Positions 3,891 through 54,518 of a DNA stretch of 64,000 nucleotides are shown here, in pieces. The stretch lies in contig CAUYUJ010017659.1 in the NCBI GenBank assembly GCA_963575745.1, positions 21,001 through 85,000 of the forward strand, written 5' to 3'. The stretch's first letter is position 1, and each line of letters opens with the position of its first letter. The notes under the pieces were generated by a model. It did no database searches, had not been told where the DNA came from, and saw only the letters and a list, made by a program, of their open reading frames with translations. Both the position numbers and the translations under genes were made by a program. The DNA comes from Prorocentrum cordatum. Taxonomy: Eukaryota; Sar; Dinophyceae; Prorocentrales; Prorocentraceae.

Positions 3891-5240
3891 CCTCCCCTGA
3901 TCGACGCCTCGCACGCAGCATTTGCTGGAGCGCTTGGATGTTGACCCCCCGCGGCCCACTAGAGCCGCGCAGCAAAGGCCACTCTTGCCCAGGCCCAGAC
4001 CCGCGTGTATATCAGCTGGAAGTCCATGTCGCTTCCGATGCCTCGGGCGGAGTTGTTTGGTTCAATCCTTGCTGTTCCTCGATTTGAGCATCTCCAGACA
4101 TGCAACGTCTTGGACTAATCAAAACAGAGGTGTTTATTGGCATGTTGCTGCCTCTGGGGAAGCACCGACGCGGGATCAAAAAACGGGCCTAGGGAAGTGG
4201 TCGAGACCTCCAGGGGTGACACGGTGAAAAGATCAAGGCGTCAGAGCTTGGGCCAGGCGGAGTGCTCGTTTCCATTCACGACGAATCAGTTCTCCCTCGG
4301 TTCCAGCATCCAGAGGCCCCGCGGACAGCAGATGCAGATATGTGTCCGGACAGGAGGAGGAATTCGGAACTTGTGGGGCCTCGGATTGAACAAATACCAT
4401 CGGCGCATGTCTGGGTTTTGGATCCGCAAAAGACATCTGAATACCATCACACCTCGTTGGGGCCATGCAGGACCCTGGCCAGACATCGTGGTGGTGTTTC
4501 GGTGCCATCTGCGTATCGGTATTCGGGGATCCTTCGGAGGCTCCAAGGGGTCTTCAGATGTTGGTCGGGGATTGCTCACGGGGTCAGCCAGAGCGCCGGC
4601 TCTTGCAGGATCTTGCAGAGCCAGGGGTAAATTGACCCGGGCTTGCGTGCAGGATCTTGCAGGAGCCTGTGCACAGCCTGATTGCCCTGGGTTTGCATCG
4701 ACCCGGGTCAGTGCGTCCCCGATGAGGAAGACTGAGGAGGTCTCCAGGGGTCCGAGGACGTATGAGGAGGTCTGAGCAGGACTGAGGTGTGTGGGGGTCT
4801 CCGCAGGACTTCTGAGCTGCTTCGAGGGGGCTCGGAGGACGGAGGAGGTTCCCAGAGGCCTTCGGCTATTCTTCGAGAGCTCTCAAGAGTTTACCTCGGG
4901 CCCCCCCCCCAGCAGCAGCGCTTCGGCGCGAGCCTTCTCGAGGCGCCCGGGCCGTGCCGGGCGGGCCTTTTCTGAGGATGTTGGCCGCCAGCCTGCCCAG
5001 CTGCCCTGGTCGGCGGCCGGACGCGCGTCGACGCCGAGCGGGCCTCGGACGGACCCCGGGGGCCGTGATTCCCGCGGGCTGGGCAAGCTGGGCGGCACCT
5101 TTGTTTCTGAGTTCGGCGGCGGGAGCGTTTCCGCCGTCCCCCAGGGCGCCTGGGTCAGGGGCAATCGCCCGCAGGCGGGCCTGGGTTTCAAGCTTTCTCT
5201 CGGGCTGCAGATTTGGGGGATGCCAGCCCGTCGATTTTGG
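3891..5240. other. Gene-free stretch
   Basis: The longest plus-strand frame (4137-4775) has no recognisable motif, and its composition matches that of the neighbouring frames. Around 4590-4700 there are diverged direct repeats of the type CAGGATCTTGCAG. No gene is supported. Confidence 0.35.
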
Positions 5241-18400: not shown

Positions 18401-18854
18401 TGGCGGGGTTGTGCGCCCTGCGTCCCCCTGCGGCGTGCAGGACCAGGGCAAATAGCACCCGAGCAAGACCCGCACTGCCGCAGGGTTGGGAGAGGAGGGC
18501 GTCGCTCTCGCGTAATCCCACGCGATGCGCGAGCTTGGCCCAAGCCGCCGCGCTTTTTTCTGCCAGCAGTGGGGCTGGAGTAGACTCGGTCGGCCAGAGC
18601 CTCGAACGTTTTCAGGGCAGTGGGCGGTCAGGGATAACGGCTGCTTCGCGCCCTCTATGTTGAACCAGAGTCTTCCCAGAACGCACTCTGCTCTGCCTTT
18701 TCTGGGACGCCATCTTATCGTCTCACATGGAACTCCTGCCTAGTGTTCTTCGGGCGCAAGGGTTATCCCGGATCAGAAATTCCAGGGTCGTCCCAGATCA
18801 TGTTCGAAAGACCCCAGCCCTACCCAGACCAGGCCTACTTATCCGTCGTCCAAG
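18401..18854. other. Gene-free stretch up to the retrotransposon
   Basis: Nothing recognised. The last bases before the element (CCAAG, 18850-18854) provide the left half of the target-site duplication. Confidence 0.35.
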
Positions 18855-19147
18855 TGTGTGATTTGAGTCTAGAGGCCGGTGGTTTTCAAGGCCGATGCCC
18901 CTGCTAGACTCCCTGAGCTTGAAGGTCACGAGCATGGGTCGTAACCATTTTGGCTCAAGACCCAACTTCCATTCATTCCTCATCACTCATACCATATCCA
19001 CCCTACCCCTCTTCCTTTCCTATACCGTTCCGCGCCTTGTTTGTACAGCGTTGGGAGCTGTGTACTGAGAAGAGAGAGTGCGAGGTTTCTCTTGCTGGAG
19101 AAAAGGTACGACACTTTGGCTTCACTGCTGTCGTCCGTCGGGCGACA
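18855..19147 (+). repeat. 5' LTR with embedded spliced-leader-like block
   Basis: 293 bases, TG...CA ends. A block at 18938-18959 matches the known 22-nt dinoflagellate spliced leader at all but two defined positions (18939 and 18944), including the invariant CCATTTTGGCTCAAG. If the transcript starts there, U3 would be only about 83 bases. A TTTT motif sits at 18883-18886, about 52 bases upstream. A T at 18972 is the only difference from the 3' LTR, which has C at 29085. Confidence 0.95.
18938..18959 (+). promoter_or_regulatory. Spliced-leader-like sequence in 5' LTR
   Basis: It reads CGTAACCATTTTGGCTCAAG from 18940. The dinoflagellate leader has G where this has A at 18944, and C where this has T at 18939. 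It is not followed by a GT donor, so it is not a spliced-leader RNA gene. It looks like a leader captured from a trans-spliced transcript or imitating one. The identical block occurs in the 3' LTR at 29051-29072. Confidence 0.8.
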
Positions 19148-19148
19148 G

Positions 19149-19160
19149 TGGTAGCGGAGC
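19149..19160 (+). other. Primer-binding site (initiator Met tRNA type)
   Basis: TGGTAGCGGAGC begins one base after the LTR. It starts with the TGGTAGC expected from complementarity to the 3' end of eukaryotic initiator-methionine tRNA, the usual primer of copia elements. The dinoflagellate tRNA itself was not available for comparison. Confidence 0.65.
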
Positions 19161-19187
19161 TGTGAGCAGCTCTGAGTCCGCGGACCA

Positions 19188-21904
19188 ATGACGGCAGCAG
19201 CGGAGCAAGGTGCTAATCGAGAGACACAGCAAGAAGAACGAGGGGAGCATTCTGCAGTACGGGCAGTGACTGATACACTGATGAGGCATGACGGTCTCCA
19301 CCTCGACCTAGATGAGGCAGAGAAGTTGGCACGTCTTCTACTACTGGATGTGGTGCCGGCCAGTTCCCAGAGTCGCCAGCGTGACTCACACGGGGGCGGC
19401 GACGACAGTGGACGTCGGCACGATCACGGGCAGAGTTCGAGTGCTCTGTGGTCAAGCGCCGAGGATCGCTCGTGGTCAGGCTGGCATGCACCACCGCCAG
19501 AGCACGAGTCGACGAGTGCCGGGACATGGTCCGGTGGCGGCGCTGCCGCGTCCGCCACCGAGACGTCCCAGGGCAGGTCGGAGCAGTGGCATTCAGGTGG
19601 CTGGGACGCGACGAGAAGCACCTGGCAGGAGCCGGACTGCAAGCCCGGCGAGCAGCAGTGGACTTCTTCGCGATCCACCTGGACTCCGGCTTTGACCTGG
19701 GAAAGCTACGGGGAAGAGCATTGGAAAGGCGAGCAGTGGGGCGACTGGTCATCCGGATGGAGATGGAACGACAACTACAAGGACAGCAAGTGGGAGCCCA
19801 ATAAGCGCCACTCCGGACATGATGACGATCGCCCCAGCACCAACACTGGCAAGGACTTCGCCGACCCCGAGAAGTGGAGAGGCTGGGGGGACTACCGCAC
19901 GTGGCGCCGCACGGTGCTGCGCTGGAGAACACTGACGGACGTTCCCTCCCACAAGCAGGCTGATCGCCTCTTCCGCTCTCTTGATCAAGACCTTCAACGG
20001 AAGCTCGAGGACCTCGATGACGACACGCTGTGCAGCTCATGGGGTTTCGACGTCATTGTCAAACGCCTTGACCTGATGTCCGGTGAAAGACACGGCGACG
20101 AGCGACGGAAGGTTGCTCGAGAGTGCTTACTGGACTACTCACGCAAGCAGGGAGAGAATCTCACCGAGTACTGTGCACGTATGGACACGGCCTTCGACAG
20201 GGTAGCTACGCAGGGGCTGCCGCTTCCAGACGAGTGGAAACTGATGTTCCTGGAGGAAGGAGTTTCTCTCGACGAGCGCTCGGCGCAGATGGTCAAGGTG
20301 CTCATGAGGGACCAGAAGGACTACAAGTCGGCTCTCTCGGCCATTCGGGAGATGGACATCTCCCATCGAGAGCATCTCAAGGCACGCAGGACCTACGCCA
20401 CTATGGGCTCGGAGGCGCCCCCACCTCAGGTGCCTACCTATCAGGTCGAGCGCGACGACGAGTCTCTGCTTGACTACTCGGATGTCTCCTCCATGGACTC
20501 AGACGGGGAAGCAGAGGTCTGGGCGATCCTGGAGTCGGCCGACATCGGGGAGGACGACGCACCTGCAGCGCTGGCCGCCATCAACCAGGAGCGCCGCAAG
20601 ACGTGGAAGCAGAACCGCGACTTGAAGAGACAGCTGAAGACCGACCGGAAGTTCTACGATAGGTCTGGCCAGGGCCGTGGCAGTGATGGGCGCGAGAAGG
20701 CTCGCAGGCCCGGCCACAGGGCAGCAGACGGCACGTTCAGAGCGCGGAAGAGCCGCCTTCCGCTCGCTGAATTAATTAAGCGCACAAGATGCCGCGTCTG
20801 TCATCAGAAGGGACACTGGTCTCGAGAGTGCCCACAGAAGCAGGGCGCAGGAGCCAAGGACGAAAAGGGGTCTCCTGCCACGGGTCTGACTTTCCTGTAT
20901 GTGAATGCTTTGGATCACTCCACCTCCCAGTGCTTCGACGAGCCTCCTCCTCCCACCTACGCAGTTGTCCTGCTCGCCGTAGGTCCTGGGGCCATGGTGG
21001 TCGACACCGCGGCCGGCCAGGGCCTTGTAGGAGAACAAGCTTTGCAGAAGATCGAGGGGCACTGGGCCTCAAAGGGGTTCGCCGTCCCAAGGGTCCCACC
21101 CAGGAACCCAAGCGCGCGCGGAGTAGGTGGGGGGGTAAAGGTCACCCACACCGCTCTGATTCCTGTGGGCATCGAGGGTAGCATGGGGGTGCTGGAGCTG
21201 GATGTCCTGGACCAGGACGTTCCACCCCTTTTGCCGATAGGATTTCAAGAGATGTTAGGTGGAATAGTGGATCTTCCGAACAAAGTTCTGACTTTTGCGA
21301 AGTTGGGGGCCACGACGCCTCTGACTAGGCTCCCGTCGGCCCACCGCACCATACAGGTAGACAAGTTTTCAGTTCCCGCTAAAGACTTTAAAGCTCCGGC
21401 CTCCGTGTTTAGGTCGCACCCTCAGCTGCCGAAGGATGCGTTTCAAGCCAAGGGGAAGTACATCATCGCGTCTTCTGTCAGCACTGGCCTGGGGGGGCTG
21501 TACCACGGAAGCTGCTGGGGGAGTCTGAGGGGGACGGAACAGCGTCCAAGGGGGTCCGGGACCTTTTTCTGGGAGAATCTTAGGTCAGAGGCGGTCGGAA
21601 CGTACGCCGGGGCCTTAGTTGGGCCGGACAACTCAGGTTCCAGAACAGGTCCGCTAAGGGGTCTGGAGTCGGGCGGCACCTCCGACTCCGCGCTGAGCAG
21701 TACGTGTACTTCGGGACTCGCCAGGGCTTTGAGTTCCAGGTCGAGACGTTTCAGAGCCAGGGGAGGGTCGACAGCGCGGGGTTGGAGGTGGCCGACGTGG
21801 GCCACAAGGCCAGCCTCGACTTCGTACGCCTTCCTCGCAGCACTTGGGCTCGAATCATTCAGCTCGCAGCAATTCGACAACAGCCTCGACAACTCAGAGG
21901 CTGA
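19188..21904 (+). pseudogene. gag: gag-protease of the copia element, frameshifted
   Basis: The frame opens at ATG 19188 and encodes a Gly/Ser/Trp-rich N-terminus. A helical capsid-like region follows (about residues 225-390, for example LFRSLDQDLQRKLEDLDDD), then a CX2CX4HX4C zinc knuckle at residues 535-548 (CRVCHQKGHWSREC), and then a retropepsin-like domain with VVDTAAG at residues 604-610 and the downstream PLLPIGF/LTFAKLG strands. This is the structural and maturation part of the element. The coherent frame is lost at a run of seven G (21491-21497). Afterwards the meaningful reading continues in another frame (for example YVYFGTRQGFEFQVETF) to the stop at 21902-21904, interrupted by a TAG at 21581-21583. 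The original frame stays open by chance to 22475, but its sequence there is low quality. Confidence 0.8.
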
Positions 21905-21921
21905 TTGGAGAGCAGATCGCG

Positions 21922-23617
21922 ATGCCGCCAGCTGCTTCGACGACCCGCGTGGCAGGCCAGAGGGGGCGTCGTGGAGCTCAGGAGCGGCCACATACGATGA
22001 CGGACCGCATGCAGAGCCAGGCGGACTCAGCATGGGTCTACGGGGCCACCGGGACCTACGTCCCGGAGAACCTCAACAAGGGCGAGAGGGGATGGGCCTG
22101 TTTGGCCGGATGGGTGCTATACTGGTCGGCGCGTCTGGCCGAGGAGTTCGGGAGTATGTGCCGCGCCAAGCGCTTCTGGCCGACCAACCTGCCCAAGTCT
22201 CTTCGCCGCCTCTCGCAGGAGTACGAGACGTGTTGGCACCCACCGACGCTCGTGAACTTCGGAGCCAACTCGTGGGGGAAGTGGTTCGTATGCAGCGGGT
22301 GCTCGATGAGGGTCGGATACTGGGAGCTGAGGCCGACAAAAGGGACCGTGAAAGAGGAGAAGATGTGCCTGTGCAAGAAGAAGGACGCCGCGTGCACGCT
22401 GTGTGGACAAGGTTGGGCTCAGGGCGCGACCGCCGAGCCACGAAAGGGCTCCGCTGCCTCTTCACCCGGGCATGATGGTCGGAGGCCTGGCGGGCGGCTC
22501 AGTCATGACGGCTCGGCAGCCGGCGTATCAGCGAGTGGCGGAGGACGCGGCGAAGGTCACCGAGGCGCTGCAGAAGGATCAGGCGGAACAGAGGTCCGCA
22601 GCAGCAGCAGCTCGCCGGGCGTCTTCAACGAAGCGCAAGCCAGAGAGCGACACGGAGGCTATGGACACCACCTCCGACCCACTCGAGGAGATGCGCGAGT
22701 ACCAGGCCAAGACCGAGAGGGACATGGAGGGTATGGTCGAGAGTCAGTTTCAGGAGATGAAGGCCATGATCCAGGGGGTGATGGCCTCGCAAGCGTCGCA
22801 GCAGGAGGCGCTCGAGCGGGTCACGACCACCGTGAAAGAGCAGATGACGGCGATCGCGACCGCCCAGGGACAGGCGCAGGAGGCCAGCCGAATGATCAGG
22901 GCCATGGCGCAGGGCAGCTCGAGCAGCAAGGCGGACCAGGTCAAGGTCGCAGCCGCTGCAATCGACTCTTCCCCCAAGGCGGAGGCCGAGGCACCGCAGG
23001 CTCGGGAGGTTCCACAACGGCCAGTGCCGTCGGGGCATCCTTCGTCACTGGGCCAGCAGATGATCGAGCCACAGCGTCAGAGCCCACCACCTCTCGCAGC
23101 GGGGGCGCCGCCAGGGGCGACTCCGACAGCGTGGGCCTACATTGGGACAGCGCCGCTCGACGGGACGAGTGTGCCGGCGGCGATGGCCTCCCAGGAGATG
23201 CTGCACCAGCAGGCGGCAGCCAACGCGGGGGCGCCACAGCCGACGAGGTCACCAGCGCTAGGAGGCTATCCGACATACGGTCCTCCGGTCGGGCAGAAGA
23301 AGGACGCAGTGACTCCTCCCCGCAATCCGGATCGCCTCTTCACTGCGGACGAGATGCCGATCGGCTCCACGGGGACGCTGACCACGGAGGCCAGCATCTC
23401 ACTCCCGGGCACGGACCTGGCAGCCCCGCCAACGGCAGCAGTCGGTCCCTACGGCAAGGGCAACAACAAGGGCAAGATCACTCCCTCACGCCAGCCGGAG
23501 AACCGAGACCCGTGGACGCCGGGCCCGGAGGAGAAGGCCGCCGAGAAGCGGCGCCAGGAGTACCACGAGTGGAAAGAGGCCGGGTGGAAGACCTTCCACA
23601 ACGGCCGCTGGACGTGA
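21922..23617 (+). CDS. Cys-cluster plus coiled-coil ORF of the copia element
   Basis: The frame starting at ATG 21922 (MPPAASTTRV) encodes a Trp-rich region (WVLYWSARLAEEFGSM, CWHPPTLVNFGANSWGKWF) and a cysteine cluster, CSGC then CLC then CTLC, up to about 22420; this is probably zinc binding. Around 22440-22470 the sensible reading passes to the next frame, where a long Glu/Gln/Ala-rich coiled-coil region (about 22500-22960, for example EALQKDQAEQRSAAAAARRA) and a Pro-rich tail run to TGA 23615-23617 (FHNGRWT). The function is not known. It lies between protease and pol, where typical copia elements have no extra ORF. The frame change could be ribosomal frameshifting, mutation, or a sequence error. 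Confidence 0.6.
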
Positions 23618-24760: not shown

Positions 24761-25685
24761 TAACTGCGCCCATGAAGCGGTTGATTCACAAAGTTCATGT
24801 GAATCTGGGACATCCTCGCAAGGAGATCTTTCTTAAGGTCCTGCGCGCGGCACACGCCCGTCCCGAGGTCATCCGATTTGTCCGAGACGAGTATGAGTGT
24901 GCCGATTGCCAAGCCCAAGTTGAGCCCGCCGGGCATCGCTCAGTGGCCATGCCACGCACTTTCCAGTTTAACAGGGTGATGCTGTCGATACTTTCTACGT
25001 TAATTTTGAAGAGGAATCGATTCCAGTGCTGAATTGCATTTGCCACGGCACGAATCTCCAGATTGTGGAAGTTTTCGACGGAACCTCGGAGGGGGCGTGG
25101 AGGGCTTTTCTCAGGGCCTGGATCAGGCCTTTCGGACCTCCTGAAATGGTGCTCTCGGATGGGGGGGCCGAGTTCAAGGGCCATTTCGAGAGAGGCCTTG
25201 AGCATCTCGGCGTATTCCAGCACGTGATAGACGCCGAGAGTCCCTGGGAAAATGGGCGTGTTGAGCGCCACGGAGGGTGGGTGAAACAGATTTTGCTTAG
25301 GGCCTCCGAGAGCAGTCTCATCACCACCCGAGCCGAGTTAGAATCCCTTCTCCACGAGGTCGTGGCAGCCAAGAACCGCTACCTCCACAGAGGAGGCTAC
25401 ACCCCTTTTCAACTCGTTTATGGGGTCAACCCAAGACTCCCCAATGACATGTTGTCAGATGATGGCGTGAGACAGGTGGGGGAGGGAGACCTTGTTCAGA
25501 CGGCATGGGACCAGGACACGGCGGCCGCGGACTATGCCAGGCAGCACGCTATCCGGGATCTGGCTCGACAGGAGCTTTTCCGCTCTTCAAGCAGGCGGAA
25601 GCTGGCGGAAGCCTCGAAGGGCAACGTCCACAGAGACGCTCCGAGCCCCGACCTCCGGAAAGAAGACGTACGCGCTCCAGCGTGA
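24761..25685 (+). pseudogene. int: Integrase of the copia element, frameshifted
   Basis: A zinc-binding N-terminus (HKVHVNLGHPRKE ... CADC) is followed by the catalytic core. The triad is at D 24987-24989 (VDTFYVNF), D 25158-25160 (VLSDGGAEF) and E 25263-25265 (WENGRVER), giving exactly 35 codons between the second D and the E, as in the DD35E family. The N-terminus lies in the preceding pol frame, but the core lies in another. The switch occurs at AGGGTGAT around 24974-24980 and is consistent with loss of one G, after which the first frame ends at 25032. The core frame itself stops at 25683-25685, while the C-terminal part (KKTYALQRDRWVGPGLVL) continues in the RT frame. The enzyme integrates the element cDNA. 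Confidence 0.85.
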
Positions 25686-25689
25686 CCGT

Positions 25690-28600
25690 TGGGTCGGACC
25701 TGGACTGGTGCTTCTTCAGTCCGGAGGGACCGTGTGGGTTGCCATGAGGAGTCGCTTGTGGAAGTGCTCATCCGAGCAAGTCAGGCTTGCGACGTCACCA
25801 GAGAGTCAGGGCGCTGAAGTTATGTCTGACCCCGGGGTCCAGAAACTTCTTCGAGAGGCCCAAGTGGGCCGCACGGGCGTGGGGGTCAACGTGGCGGCCG
25901 AAGGACCGCCACCTCGTGAGGCCTGGGAACCAGGACACGGTGTGGAAGTGGAAGCCTCACCCATTCAGGCTCCGCTTCCTCCTCCCGCCAGGTCTCGAGC
26001 TCCTGGGGGCAACGTTCAGCGGCCGGTTCCCCCTCCCGGGCTGTCCCCCATTCCAGAGGAAGAAGTCGCCGACGCCACGGGTTCGGATCCAGGGAGCGAG
26101 ACCAGGCCACCCACAGATTTATCTCGCTCTAGGGAGGTCAGTATCGAGGGAGGGGACGAAGAAGAAGAGTCAAGACCGCACAAGTATATTCAAGTTGATC
26201 CGGAGGGGGCTGCCTTGCTCCCTCCGCTCTCGAGCGGCCCAGTGCAGGGTCAGTCCTCCAACTCCTCTTCCTCTCAGCCTCTCCCACTCCAACAGGCTCC
26301 AGAAGGAGGGCGGCTGGAGGCCGAGCCTCAGCAGGCGTCCGTCATCGCTGATCCGGCAGCAGACTCCCGCATGGACGAGAGCCGTAGTGCCGGACAAGTC
26401 CCGGGCGATGGTACACCCAGTGGGGAGTCCAATGTGCCAAGGCCGATTATGGATGGAACGGTTCTTCGGAACGAGATATTAGACTTGGGCATGAAACGTC
26501 AGGGTCAGCGTTTTTCGGTCACCAGGGGAGAGGACTTCAGAGGGGTCCCACCGGGGCGTGTTCGGACCCAGGTCCAAGAGCTGGAAGGTCGGCCGGAATC
26601 CAGGCCAGTAAGGCGCTCCAGGTCCCCTCCCCCCGGGCGGCCCCCGGGATCCGCCATGGAAGACGTCCCCATGTCAGGCTTTCTTGAGATGAATGACGCG
26701 AAGATAGATGCGCTTCTGGAAATGAGTGATGAGGAACTCGTGTCATATGTCAATGACGTGGAAAGAGCTTTAGACGAGGAGGGATGGAGTGGCACCTGGG
26801 CTCAGTATCACAACGGCAATGCCAACTGTGAAGTTCTGCCCGGAGAATCGGGTGGTTTTTCTCTCTCACTGTTAGCTAATCGAGGGTGCGAGGTGCGTCT
26901 CAAAGACCTCACGCCCGAAGAAAAGAGGGAATTCGCCTCTTCCGACTTGCAGGAGTGGGAGGGGATCGCTGCCACCAAGTCCGTGAAAGTTCACGCTCCG
27001 GCCGAGGGGCGTCTCTTCAGGCAGCTGTTTCCCAATCGGGTCGTCTCGAGTCGGATGGTCCGCCGCTGGAAACCCCAAGGCAGCGTCGGAGCCCGACCTA
27101 AGGCGAAGTCGCGCTGGTGCGTGAGGGGACACCAAGACGAGGACACCGCTGAACTCCAAGTTTATGCCCCTACGCCATCCATGGAATCTCTCATGCTGTT
27201 TCTGGCCATATCTCTCATGTATGGTTTAGAGGTCCATATAGGCGACATTAAGAACGCCTTTTGTCAGTCCGATCCGCTTAAGCGGCCCAGAGGGCGGGTT
27301 TTTGTGGAGCCCTGCGAGGGCTTGAACCTTCCGGCCGGGGCTCTCATTGAGCTCATCGCTCCTGTGTATGGGCTCGATGACGCACCTCTCGCGTTTCATG
27401 AGACGTCGGCCAGGTTTCTGGAGGGACAAGGCTTCACGAGGGCCAAGTTGGAGCCCTGCTGGTTTTCCCAGAAGGAAAATGGTCACCTAGTCGCGCAGGT
27501 GCTGCTGGAGGTTGACGACTGGGCTATCGTTTTCCCTCCGGGTCAACAGAACAAGTATTTGACCGAGTTTAAGAAGCGTTTCACGTTCGGAAAAATGGAG
27601 AAACTCGATGAGGCCGGAGTTGAGTATATCGGTCGAAGGCTTCGACTCGTTGGACACGGCACCGCCACACCGCGTATTCTCGTGGACCAGGAAAAATACA
27701 TTCTCGAGCAGGTCCGCAAGATACCGCTGTCAAGGGGGCGTCGTGGGGATCACTCCAGTCCCCTGGTTGGGACGGAGGTGGCGGAGTTCCGAAGCCTGGT
27801 TTACAAACTGAACTGGGTTGGACGGGAATCCCGTGCTGAGGCTGCCGGATGTGCGTCTATTCTAGCGACCAAGGTGAACTCACCATGCGTCAGGGACCTG
27901 GTCGAGGCACATAAGATGGTGGACCACCTTAGGTCCACGGCCAGCATGCCCGTGATAATTCACAAGTTCGACCCCTCCCGCTGCATTTTCGCGACGGCCA
28001 GCGACTGCGGGGGAGTCGGCTCGGATGACTGCATGTTCCCACAACAAGCATGGCAGGTCTATTTAGCAGACAATGCTCTAGCGCACGGTCAACGTGCGAG
28101 GGCCACCCCCCTAGCTTGGAGATCATGCCGAGTCAAGCGCCAGGTGGCGAGCACTCTCGCAGGAGAGACGCTGGCGCTTTCCGGAGCTCTTGCTGAAGCT
28201 CAGTGGCTTCATCTCATGTTCGAAGATGTTGTGAGAGGGAACGTGGTGTCAGAAGCCTGGCAGGGGAAAGTCGGCCCCTTTGCGGCCATTTTGAAGGAAG
28301 ACTGCCAGCTGATCGCTCACTCGCCCTCGGAGTGTGTCAGCATAGTCGACGCCAAGGGAATTTATGACACCCTTAGCAAGCTATCCAATGGTTCTCGATC
28401 CGATCGTCGGGCCGCGATCGACCTCGCGGTCGTTCGAGATATCATGCAGAAGGTCGGGAGCGTGATTCGTTGGATGCCGCGCCCGTTACTTCCGGTCGAT
28501 TGCATGACGAAATCGGACCTTGCCAAAACCAACGCGGCTCAATATGAGCTGCTTCGCTCCGGGTGTTTGCGTCTCTCTGCGGAAAGCGGGGCCCTCGAGG

Positions 28601-28716
28601 GCCGGCGCGAGGATCCCCGTAGGAAAGGCCGCTCCAGAGCCGAATCCCAGAGGCAACTCCAGCAGCAGGAGAACGATGGCAAGGCTAGTGCTGTTCAGCC
28701 GTCCCATGCCGAGTGA
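25690..28716 (+). CDS. pol: Reverse transcriptase-RNase H of the copia element
   Basis: One long frame (open from 25492, meaningful from about 25660) begins with the integrase C-terminal strand region, passes a Pro/Ser/acidic linker (25850-26680), and enters the copia-type RT near 27050. Motif A is VHIGDIKNAF with D at 27244-27246. The active-site LEVDDWAIV has the Asp pair at 27514-27519, equivalent to YVDD. RNase H follows with ASDCGG (D 28003-28005), AGETLAL and IVDAKGIYDTL. The frame ends at TGA 28714-28716. All catalytic acidic residues that I could identify are present, so this part appears intact. It copies element RNA into DNA inside the gag particle. Confidence 0.92.
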   Translation, partial: WVGPGLVLLQSGGTVWVAMRSRLWKCSSEQVRLATSPESQGAEVMSDPGVQKLLREAQVGRTGVGVNVAAEGPPPREAWEPGHGVEVEASPIQAPLPPPARSRAPGGNVQRPVPPPGLSPIPEEEVADATGSDPGSETRPPTDLSRSREVSIEGGDEEEESRPHKYIQVDPEGAALLPPLSSGPVQGQSSNSSSSQPLPLQQAPEGGRLEAEPQQASVIADPAADSRMDESRSAGQVPGDGTPSGESNVPRPIMDGTVLRNEILDLGMKRQGQRFSVTRGEDFRGVPPGRVRTQVQELEGRPESRPVRRSRSPPPGRPPGSAMEDVPMSGFLEMNDAKIDALLEMSDEELVSYVNDVERALDEEGWSGTWAQYHNGNANCEVLPGESGGFSLSLLANRGCEVRLKDLTPEEKREFASSDLQEWEGIAATKSVKVHAPAEGRLFRQLFPNRVVSSRMVRRWKPQGSVGARPKAKSRWCVRGHQDEDTAELQVYAPTPSMESLMLFLAISLMYGLEVHIGDIKNAFCQSDPLKRPRGRVFVEPCEGLNLPAGALIELIAPVYGLDDAPLAFHETSARFLEGQGFTRAKLEPCWFSQKENGHLVAQVLLEVDDWAIVFPPGQQNKYLTEFKKRFTFGKMEKLDEAGVEYIGRRLRLVGHGTATPRILVDQEKYILEQVRKIPLSRGRRGDHSSPLVGTEVAEFRSLVYKLNWVGRESRAEAAGCASILATKVNSPCVRDLVEAHKMVDHLRSTASMPVIIHKFDPSRCIFATASDCGGVGSDDCMFPQQAWQVYLADNALAHGQRARATPLAWRSCRVKRQVASTLAGETLALSGALAEAQWLHLMFEDVVRGNVVSEAWQGKVGPFAAILKEDCQLIAHSPSECVSIVDAKGIYDTLSKLSNGSRSDRRAAIDLAVVRDIMQKVGSVIRWMPRPLLPVDCMTKSDLAKTNAAQYELLRSGCLRLSAESGALEGRREDPRRKGRSRAESQRQLQQQENDGKASAVQPSHAE

Positions 28717-28967
28717 CAGTCGTCACGGTCTGGCGGGACATGGCCGGTGCACGTCTCTCGAGGGTCGTCAGGGCCGAGCGAGATATCAGTGACCAGCCAG
28801 GCCGGAGCGAGGTCGTCAGGACTCGCTGCGGCACGACGGCAGCAGCAGTACTTACATGAATGGCACTAGAGTGCCCACTCCCTTTCTCCAAGATGGTGCG
28901 ACCCATTGGCTCGGAGGAGAGCCATGGTGCCTTCGCGACCTATCAAGCTCACTGTTTGTCGGGGTAC
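28717..28967 (+). other. 3' untranslated region of the copia element
   Basis: 251 bases between the RT stop and the 3' LTR. No clear polypurine tract abuts the LTR. The nearest purine-rich stretch is CGGAGGAGAG at about 28911-28920. No ORF of note. Confidence 0.6.
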
Positions 28968-29260
28968 TGTGTGATTTGAGTCTAGAGGCCGGTGGTTTTC
29001 AAGGCCGATGCCCCTGCTAGACTCCCTGAGCTTGAAGGTCACGAGCATGGGTCGTAACCATTTTGGCTCAAGACCCAACTTCCACTCATTCCTCATCACT
29101 CATACCATATCCACCCTACCCCTCTTCCTTTCCTATACCGTTCCGCGCCTTGTTTGTACAGCGTTGGGAGCTGTGTACTGAGAAGAGAGAGTGCGAGGTT
29201 TCTCTTGCTGGAGAAAAGGTACGACACTTTGGCTTCACTGCTGTCGTCCGTCGGGCGACA
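28968..29260 (+). repeat. 3' LTR
   Basis: 293 bases, identical to 18855-19147 except C at 29085. It includes the spliced-leader-like block at 29051-29072. It is followed directly by CAAG, matching the bases before the 5' LTR. Confidence 0.95.
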
Positions 29261-30764
29261 CAAGTCGGAGCGTAGCGCTGCGTCAGCGATGCAGCGCGAT
29301 GTGAGCCCTATCGTTCTCCATCCCGACGTCCCCAATCCATCGGCGATGCGGTGCGATCCTCCGACTTGGAGGCGGCGGGGGGTCTTCTCTGGATGGGCAT
29401 TGGAAGCGTTGGCCAAGATCTGGAGAGGTCAAAGCTGGGCAGTACCCATTCAAGGCAGGCGGTCCCGATGGGAGGGAGGTCGAAATCTGCACGCAAGCGC
29501 CCCCGCCTCCCAGTCTCTCTGGCTGGAACAGTAAGCGGGCCGCCTCTGCCCAAGCCACAGACACGTCGTGACTTGAAACGGCCCCACGGCCCAGTGAGGG
29601 CCGCCGAAGTTTGCCGAACATGTCTTGGCATTTTTGTTATGCACGACGTCGGATGGAGCCGCCGCTCTCAGTCACCGACCCCGTCTGCTCTGGCCGTTTG
29701 GAGTTCCGTTGCATCTTCGGGGGGCCTCGTCTGCCCTCAAGACTGTGCCTCGTTGGTGTGCCCAGCGCGGGTTCGATGCGGATTCGACGCGGATTCGGCG
29801 AACACGGATTCGACGCGGATTCGACCCGGATAGTGGCGCATCGGGACGGGCAAGGTCTTTTGGGCGAGACTAGGACGAGGATGAATCCGCTCCAGAGCGT
29901 TCCGGAACCGTTCCGGAACCGCCGGATCTCAGAGATTCTCGTTTTGTCTTAGACATGATCGATTCTCGATTCTCGCCCTGGCCTCGTCTTAGTTCCCCCG
30001 AAAAAGCAACACAGCCGGAGGCCTCCGCTCAGCTCGCTCCGCCCGCCTCGGAATATCCGCGGAGGCCTCCGCGGCGCGCCAGCCCCTCGGCGGAGAGCTA
30101 TGCCCCGCGAGTCCCCAGAGCGCCCTGCCGCGGAAGCGGTCGGCGCCATACCCCTGACCGCCATCGTCACGCACGCGGTGGTCCAGCTCTACCTGGAGGA
30201 GCCCGCCCTCCGATGCGGGCGTTGCGATTTTGTTTCGCAGCAGGCGTGTTCGCCTGGCGTCCCCCCCCCCCGCCCCGCGGCCGCCTGCCTCCCCCTTTTC
30301 CCTCTCCCGCACGCTGGCCAATTCGCTTTTCGGTGCCTCCGTCTAGCTCCTTCGCTGGTGCAGCCAACTCTTCATCGCCGCCGACAGAAAAAGTGTTTGC
30401 CTGACGTCCCTTTTCTCCCCCTCTTGCTGCCGGACAATCAGAGCCGGCCGTCTCCAGGCCCCCCCCCGAGCGCGCGCGCGGACTGCTCCTGCGACGTAAG
30501 AAGCTTTTATCTGGCGTCGGGCCCCGGGACCCTCACAGGTCGATTTGGCCCTGAAAATGGCGCATGCAGGCGAGGCCTGGGATTCCGGTCGTGATGTTTC
30601 GAGATGGTGTTGCCGCTTTGTGGGACGTCGGAGCTTAGTGCTTACGGTCCTCACTGCCATGTCTTTTTTTGTTTTGGTTGTGGCACCTTATAAACGGTTA
30701 GACGGCATTAAAAGGCTCACCATCAGCAGCATACAACTTGTTACAACGAGCTTGTGGCACGCAT
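29261..30764. other. Unassigned stretch
   Basis: 29765-29830 is a short array of GGATTCGACGC units. A frame at 30100-30260 (RPAAEAVGAIPLTAIVTHAV, then VQLYLEEPALRCGRC) looks more protein-like than its neighbours but has no recognisable family or limits. The rest holds nothing I can identify. Confidence 0.3.
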
Positions 30765-54496: not shown

Positions 54497-54518
54497 TCCG
54501 CAGCCAGTTTGGCTCAAG
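54497..54518 (+). promoter_or_regulatory. Relict dinoflagellate spliced leader
   Basis: CCGCAGCCAGTTTGGCTCAAG (54498-54518) matches the 22-nt leader at 20 of 22 positions (differences at 54501 and 54507). No splice donor follows, so it is not a leader-RNA gene. Relict leaders upstream of genes are known in dinoflagellates as marks of retroposed mRNAs. An ORF starts 31 bases downstream. Confidence 0.7.

Follow-up and report, generated by a model that had tools for sequence, protein, structure and literature searches.

The R region must be alike at both ends of the RNA of an LTR element, so that a host replacing the 5' ends of many of its messages creates a problem for such elements. How a retrotransposon might cope with this situation is the question raised by a stretch of 64,000 nucleotides of the dinoflagellate Prorocentrum cordatum (contig CAUYUJ010017659.1 of assembly GCA_963575745.1, positions 21,001 to 85,000 of the forward strand; 61.1% GC), hereafter the window, where letters resembling the host spliced leader (SL; DinoSL) lie inside both LTRs of a copia element. 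This element, named A, has the following layout:

18851..18854, + strand: target-site duplication CAAG, 5' copy
18855..19147, + strand: 5' LTR of copia element A, 293 bp, TG...CA, direct repeat of 28968-29260
19149..19160, + strand: primer-binding-site-like TGGTAGCGGAGC, one base past the 5' LTR
19176..22475, + strand: open frame whose first ATG is at 19188, with gag and a zinc knuckle (zf-CCHC_2, below the Pfam cutoff)
25471..28716, + strand: open frame of a copia-type reverse transcriptase (RVT_2, E 4.2e-12)
28961..28967, + strand: short purine-rich tract GGGGTAC, PPT-like, adjoining the 3' LTR
28968..29260, + strand: 3' LTR of copia element A, direct repeat of the 5' LTR
29261..29264, + strand: target-site duplication CAAG, 3' copy

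With its LTRs, their TG...CA ends, the duplication and a reverse transcriptase (RT) placed after the integrase, element A is a Ty1/copia LTR retrotransposon. Integrase-like residues were recognized by eye in the open frame at 24972-25685, upstream of RT, a frame with no Pfam match. The two LTRs show a single difference in 293 bp, at LTR base 118. The frames shift along the interior, which is not one open polyprotein; longer open frames are found in some other copies in the same genome, and its RT has relatives in named dinoflagellates. The motif TGGTAGCGGAGC, which presumably resembles the complement of the 3' end of initiator tRNA-Met, is present with identical letters in a second element, B, and with one difference in a third, C; both of them have GGGGGAC in front of their 3' LTRs.

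The leader-like letters occupy the following positions:

18938..18959, + strand: DinoSL-derived block of the 5' LTR, GTCGTAACCATTTTGGCTCAAG, 19 of 21 defined letters
29051..29072, + strand: DinoSL-derived block of the 3' LTR, letters identical to those of the 5' LTR block

Compared with the leader DCCGTAGCCATTTTGGCTCAAG, the block GTCGTAACCATTTTGGCTCAAG has T for C at SL position 2 and A for G at position 7 as its only departures; it is exact over positions 8-22 and starts at LTR base 84. The sequence-only reading, which had placed such a block in both LTRs at an offset of 83 bases with two mismatches, is thus confirmed. As both LTRs are copied from one template, their common offset is one observation, not two, and independent support for the block is to be found in other elements of the genome. 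Chance is ruled out as its origin: dinucleotide shuffles of the window (n=100) gave zero matches with at most 3 mismatches to the leader, order-1 Markov LTRs (n=1500) came at best to 5 mismatches, reached by one of them, and permuted leaders (n=300) matched the window with 4 mismatches at best, in three cases. The block sits inside both LTRs of an RT-bearing element, not directly upstream of a retroposed host gene, and it reads GTAA, with no AG at SL positions 6-7, the acceptor implied in DinoRL. At 18935-18964 the flanks GGGTC and GACCC can pair, and the block of family A can be drawn as a hairpin loop (one fold, uncontrolled).

A search of the same genome with the RT of element A retained, of 8803 first-look candidates, 75 match rows, scored as 73 loci including the window, as two loci were split in two pieces. 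The 3' LTR side was read for 50 of the 72 other loci, mostly by order of score and with a match near the RT C-terminus required; 601 bases downstream were covered for the last ten, in which blocks farther off would be missed, against 900-1101 for the rest. Defining a block by at most 5 mismatches over 21 letters, 38 of these 50 elements carry it, and 39 if L135, which has one inserted base, is counted; exactly 5 mismatches were found in five of the 38, all of family G and with the same letters. On the opposite strand the count falls to 1 in 50 (an exact relict beside L115), and in mononucleotide shuffles to 1 in 200. A sample selected by RT favours relatives of element A, and the members of its own family are a sampled subset of the loci found. 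Among those members (90-99% RT identity) the block is present in 16 of 16, with T at SL position 2 in every one, A at position 7 in 15 and the exact 15-letter core in 14. It is also present in families E (79-81% RT identity), F (69-70%), C (64-67%), B (67%) and G (60-61%). By contrast, there is no block in the fetched stretch of 11 of the 50 elements (L142-L145, L149, L151-L155 and L158), which have an RT identity of 56-66%; the block is therefore not essential to copia elements here. Both LTRs were read in seven elements (that of the window, B, C, a further element D, L119, L125 and L126) and all seven have the block in both, while in the others placement within an LTR is deduced from distance and sequence. 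Copies within a family are related, so that the 39 LTR copies amount to about six independent cases, and L120 and L121 are perhaps one insertion counted twice.

Conservation between the six families is concentrated in the block. Taking all copies, weighted by family, block identity is 0.83 (15 family pairs, 0.69-0.93), against 0.29-0.35 for the flanks when gaps are counted as mismatches, or 0.42-0.44 when gap columns are dropped (three choices of representatives); the best other window of 21 columns reaches 0.57-0.60. With single representatives, block identity is 0.876 for the leader-closest copies of E, F and G, 0.819 for typical ones and 0.787 for the worst. It is highly probable, then, that a leader block is present and conserved in these LTRs. 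Two points of the sequence-only reading fare well here: the core is conserved within otherwise dissimilar LTRs (0.83 for the block versus about 0.3 for the flanks), and the fixed place that would support it is found in the family, where all 16 sampled copies (16 of 16) have the block 336-342 nt past the end of the RT match. Its own refuting condition, family members lacking the block, did not arise among these 16; 11 of the 50 sampled elements, all at an RT identity of at most 66%, show no block.

The core can also be followed without reference to RT. The own assembly (4,128,499,153 bases, 21,875 contigs) contains the leader core in exact form 23,175 times, and the reversed pattern 3 times. 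When core hits are ranked by G content downstream, L083 comes first and L053 second, and both are within LTRs of copia elements, B and C. The LTR pair is 96.9% identical over 325 nt in B and 91.5% over 272 nt in C, and copia matches lie between the LTRs of each. Element D came from a same-strand pair of cores 7,211 bp apart, among 100 distinct core hits, that belongs to 84-bp identical terminal repeats; it is copia-like, carries the core and is distantly related by RT (best match E 3.9e-12). B, C and D were all found through the exact core and are therefore uninformative on its rate of retention; the other LTR of B, as that of C, has one change within the core. Among further candidates, the pair at L076 was rejected as an LTR pair, being a 1.2-kb duplication; L071 (GTAA) has no second copy within about 10 kb on either side, and L008 (GTAA, ACCCAA) adjoins a satellite, the 40 kb covered there containing no copia match.

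As a term of comparison we used 84 other relicts, single and read outside known LTRs, though each was not individually checked for LTR location; excluded were 11 relicts in tandem and all loci already known as LTR hits, two of which, L053 and L083, had been picked for low G. In 47 of the 84, at least four TCC- or GGA-type units occur in the 44 bases before the leader (L006, L007, L015 and L058 are examples), as if leader-tagged cDNA had been inserted beside such repeats, a count made with no shuffled control. The window itself holds a third DinoSL relict at 54497-54518, with 2 mismatches and independent of element A; ATGs follow within about 25-35 nt, a short open frame was made out by eye farther downstream, and it is a probable retrogene remnant.

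The letters of the LTR blocks differ from those of the other relicts in a particular way. SL position 7 is canonical in 9% of LTR blocks (mean of six families, 38 copies), against 89% of the 84 other relicts, while the other SL positions of LTR blocks are canonical in 64-100%. The AG before the core, at SL positions 6-7, which exists in 63 of the 84 relicts, is found in only 2 of 39 LTR copies (L119 and L126). An AG within the last four letters of the block, however, is kept in 38 of 38. In-register trans-splicing would be expected to favour just this combination, an inner acceptor lost and an outer acceptor retained. In the literature on re-splicing of relicts, as far as the portions consulted go, a TG acceptor has also been suggested for some transcripts.

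The stretch after the block holds a G-free tract and a competing acceptor:

18960..19026, + strand: G-free tract of 67 nt, 78% pyrimidine, immediately 3' of the block; the R/5'UTR body is proposed to start here
29073..29139, + strand: matching 67-nt G-free tract of the 3' LTR, the G-free run being found at 29073
19047..19048, + strand: rival splice acceptor AG, TTGTTTGTACAG, the best polypyrimidine-preceded AG of the LTR, downstream of the block

None of 5000 mononucleotide shuffles of the LTR reaches a G-free run of 67 nt; two longer runs exist elsewhere in the window (81 and 69 nt), both within repeat tracts. In the 50 nt after the block there are 0-6 G in families A, B, C, E and F, 9-10 in G, and 6 and 10 after the two block copies of element D; after the leader of the other relicts (n=84) the median is 16 and the minimum 11. 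The pyrimidine content of the 30 nt upstream is 77% for the AG at 19047-19048 versus 53% for the block's own AG. Thus the strongest acceptor-like AG, judged by pyrimidine content, is not that of the block but one 89 nt farther downstream, and element A has its pyrimidine tract after the block, not before it; both facts count against splicing at the block. As an acceptor accounting for the block, the AG at 19048 is disfavoured, by reasoning only: splicing there would put the block outside the 5' end, and the intervening tract would need another reason for its retention. A motif like GAGCTTGAA is found 24-51 nt upstream of the block, at a variable position, in 8 of 8 checked LTR copies (families A, B, C, E, F and G); it could be a branch site or a U3 signal.

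The account that we prefer, taken to its fullest form, is that a clade of copia elements adopted the host leader as the start of its R region, that trans-splicing takes place in register with the encoded copy, that selection removed the inner AG, and that sister elements record how far copying went. We give this form a probability of roughly 0.4. Capture, transcription start, trans-splicing at the block, use in strand transfer and rewriting are all steps that we infer. In an ancestral copia element, a trans-spliced RNA would have been reverse transcribed, bringing a DinoSL copy into the LTR; both LTRs being copied from one R template, the block would then be present in both and inherited as DNA. 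The block would form the 5' border of R, the RNA of the element starting upstream, in U3. The host SL RNA would be spliced onto the AG at the 3' end of the block, the SL exon replacing the block letter for letter and being thereby joined to the G-poor tract. The inner AG at SL positions 6-7, presumed acceptor in ordinary relicts, would add a second leader out of register, and it would have been lost for this reason. Because the 3' R still has the block, strong-stop DNA ending in leader would match it and first-strand transfer would work. For this core of the scheme, trans-splicing combined with strand transfer through a leader block in R, the odds appear close to even. If it is true, these elements overcame the replacement of their 5' ends by building the host leader into R; moreover, genomes replete with leader-tagged retrogenes would then have an identified source of leader-tagged RNA that is reverse transcribed.

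How much of the leader is copied back is a separate matter. In the usual transfer, the old letters at positions 1-7 would stay; occasionally the leader would be copied wholly or partly and the block rewritten. The sisters L125 and L126 have three differences within the block, each consistent across the two LTRs of its element, L126 being leader-exact in both LTRs (at C13513). These 3 of 21 block letters compare with 10 of 278 outside the block (Fisher P 0.054), and a rewrite of the L126 block toward the leader is only suggested by these counts; retention of an ancestral state is an admissible explanation of the same letters. The LTR pairs are 96.6% identical in L126 and 94.0% in L125, so neither is a fresh insertion. 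In L119 (C13276) both LTRs have G at position 7, against A in 15 members of the family. Since the two LTRs of each element agree, the block letters of L119 and L126 were most likely set when the copy was made, or before, and in both the change is in the direction of the leader. Family A and L125 share T at position 2, where the other families have C, which leaves room for ancestral letters retained in L126. Full rewriting at each cycle is excluded, as most copies are not leader-exact; even the inner part of the leader is not always rewritten, as families B, F and G, like copy L125 of family E, deviate from SL inside positions 8-13. The idea that an exact leader is copied at every cycle must accordingly be abandoned: young elements would then be leader-exact, yet A stands at position 7 in 15 of the 16 copies of the own family, and both non-leader letters persist in the near-identical LTRs of the window. 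Of the sequence-only reading, which had R begin with a leader copy, there remains a block that is DinoSL-derived, fixed in the family and conserved, and the loss of its inner AG with the end AG kept also speaks in its favour; what falls is simple copying in each cycle. One study reports that some 70% of the full-length cDNAs bearing the leader begin at its position 2 or 8 (PMC7245778). These starts would fit an early end of copying, the cDNA being, however, made in the laboratory.

Other explanations share part of this evidence. Transcription might simply start at the block, without any trans-splicing, the letters being kept because translation or export recognizes leader-like ends. The steadiness of non-leader letters in the own family (A at position 7 in 15 of 16 copies, T at position 2 in 16 of 16) and the G-free tract directly 3' of the block both agree with this, and there is a parallel in an assembled dinoflagellate RNA virus genome with a 5' dinoSL, for which molecular mimicry was speculated (PMC10235124). 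Yet an encoded mimic leaves unexplained why the inner AG is lost when the end AG is retained, and why both LTRs of L126 have a leader-exact block and both of L119 a G at position 7; we hold it to be unlikely. Ordinary cDNA reads would tell it apart, since in family A a 5' end added by trans-splicing has other letters at SL positions 2 and 7 than an encoded one. A role of the TTTT box of the relict as the core promoter of the LTR would be compatible with a position at a possible U3/R border, and passages on DinoSL relicts in retrogenes propose this role for them (PMC6050394; PMC12014239). The TTTT run is nevertheless broken in L125 (CATTCTGG) and in three families, F (CACTCTGG or CACTTTGG), G (CATCTTGG) and B (CATTATGG, in L134), although TGGCT is retained. 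For this reason a promoter by TTTT alone is disfavoured, and since it also leaves the missing G of position 7 unexplained, we regard it as improbable.

A block without any function, inherited as a fossil from a single old capture of the leader or acquired by repeated chance captures, would be natural in a genome where DinoSL cores are so much more common than their reversed pattern. It would hardly be expected, however, to stay at 79-88% column identity between families whose flanks are down to 29-35%, nor to be changed at position 7 in 37 of 39 LTR copies when this holds for 11% of the 84 other relicts, and its probability appears low. Finally, if the element carried an SL RNA (donor) gene, leader exon sequence would be present in it, as it is in the block. 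This last candidate is refuted by the missing donor: ACCC, not GT, comes after the block of the window, and GT follows directly in none of the 39 block-bearing elements.

DinoSL relicts in retroposed genes were reportedly described by Slamovits and Keeling in 2008. In the portions of later work considered here (PMC6050394; PMC12014239; PMC7245778), they are, like the LTR block, genomic leader copies read as the product of reverse-transcribed trans-spliced RNA; they form the 5' tag of a retrocopy, re-spliced with loss of the first seven letters. The LTR block, by contrast, lies inside both LTRs of RT-bearing elements, is conserved between families and is without AG at positions 6-7 in 37 of 39 copies. 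Ty1/copia elements, with a copia-type reverse transcriptase and LTRs like element A, are known from Symbiodinium and Oxyrrhis (PMC3942190; PMC11453091; Chen et al. 2018 cited there), and the passages used from these two articles do not describe a leader inside the LTRs, unlike what is seen here. More broadly, the portions of the literature searched give no description of a leader inside an LTR. A further parallel is Cer1 of Caenorhabditis elegans, an LTR element in a host with leader trans-splicing, whose spliced mRNA exists with and without SL1; its 8-kb RNA was found not to be trans-spliced at the SL1 site (PMC3315495), and trans-spliced genomic RNA is therefore not a general rule. The dinoRNAV mentioned above (PMC10235124) is likewise a selfish dinoflagellate RNA with the host leader at the 5' end of its assembled genome; it differs in being an RNA virus without LTRs, in which the leader has no strand-transfer role.

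Searches in wider collections found no relatives of the RT in viral and genome contigs, none in phage records, and no family-specific DNA pattern; a peptide encoded by the LTR had no protein match, and no leader-derived peptide was found in the proteins of 94 relatives. The leader does occur in two contigs of other assignment. In L001 (IMGVR_UViG_3300045993_001077), of 22% GC, two exact DinoSL copies lie at 2746-2765 and 2893-2912, 147 nt apart, one of them followed by an apparently more GC-rich stretch; this is either a chimera or a viral contig containing leader-tagged sequence of the host. In L005, a contig filed under a Dehalococcoidia MAG, a leader at 4334-4353 on the minus strand is followed by GT, which has the appearance of a dinoflagellate SL RNA gene binned with bacteria by mistake.
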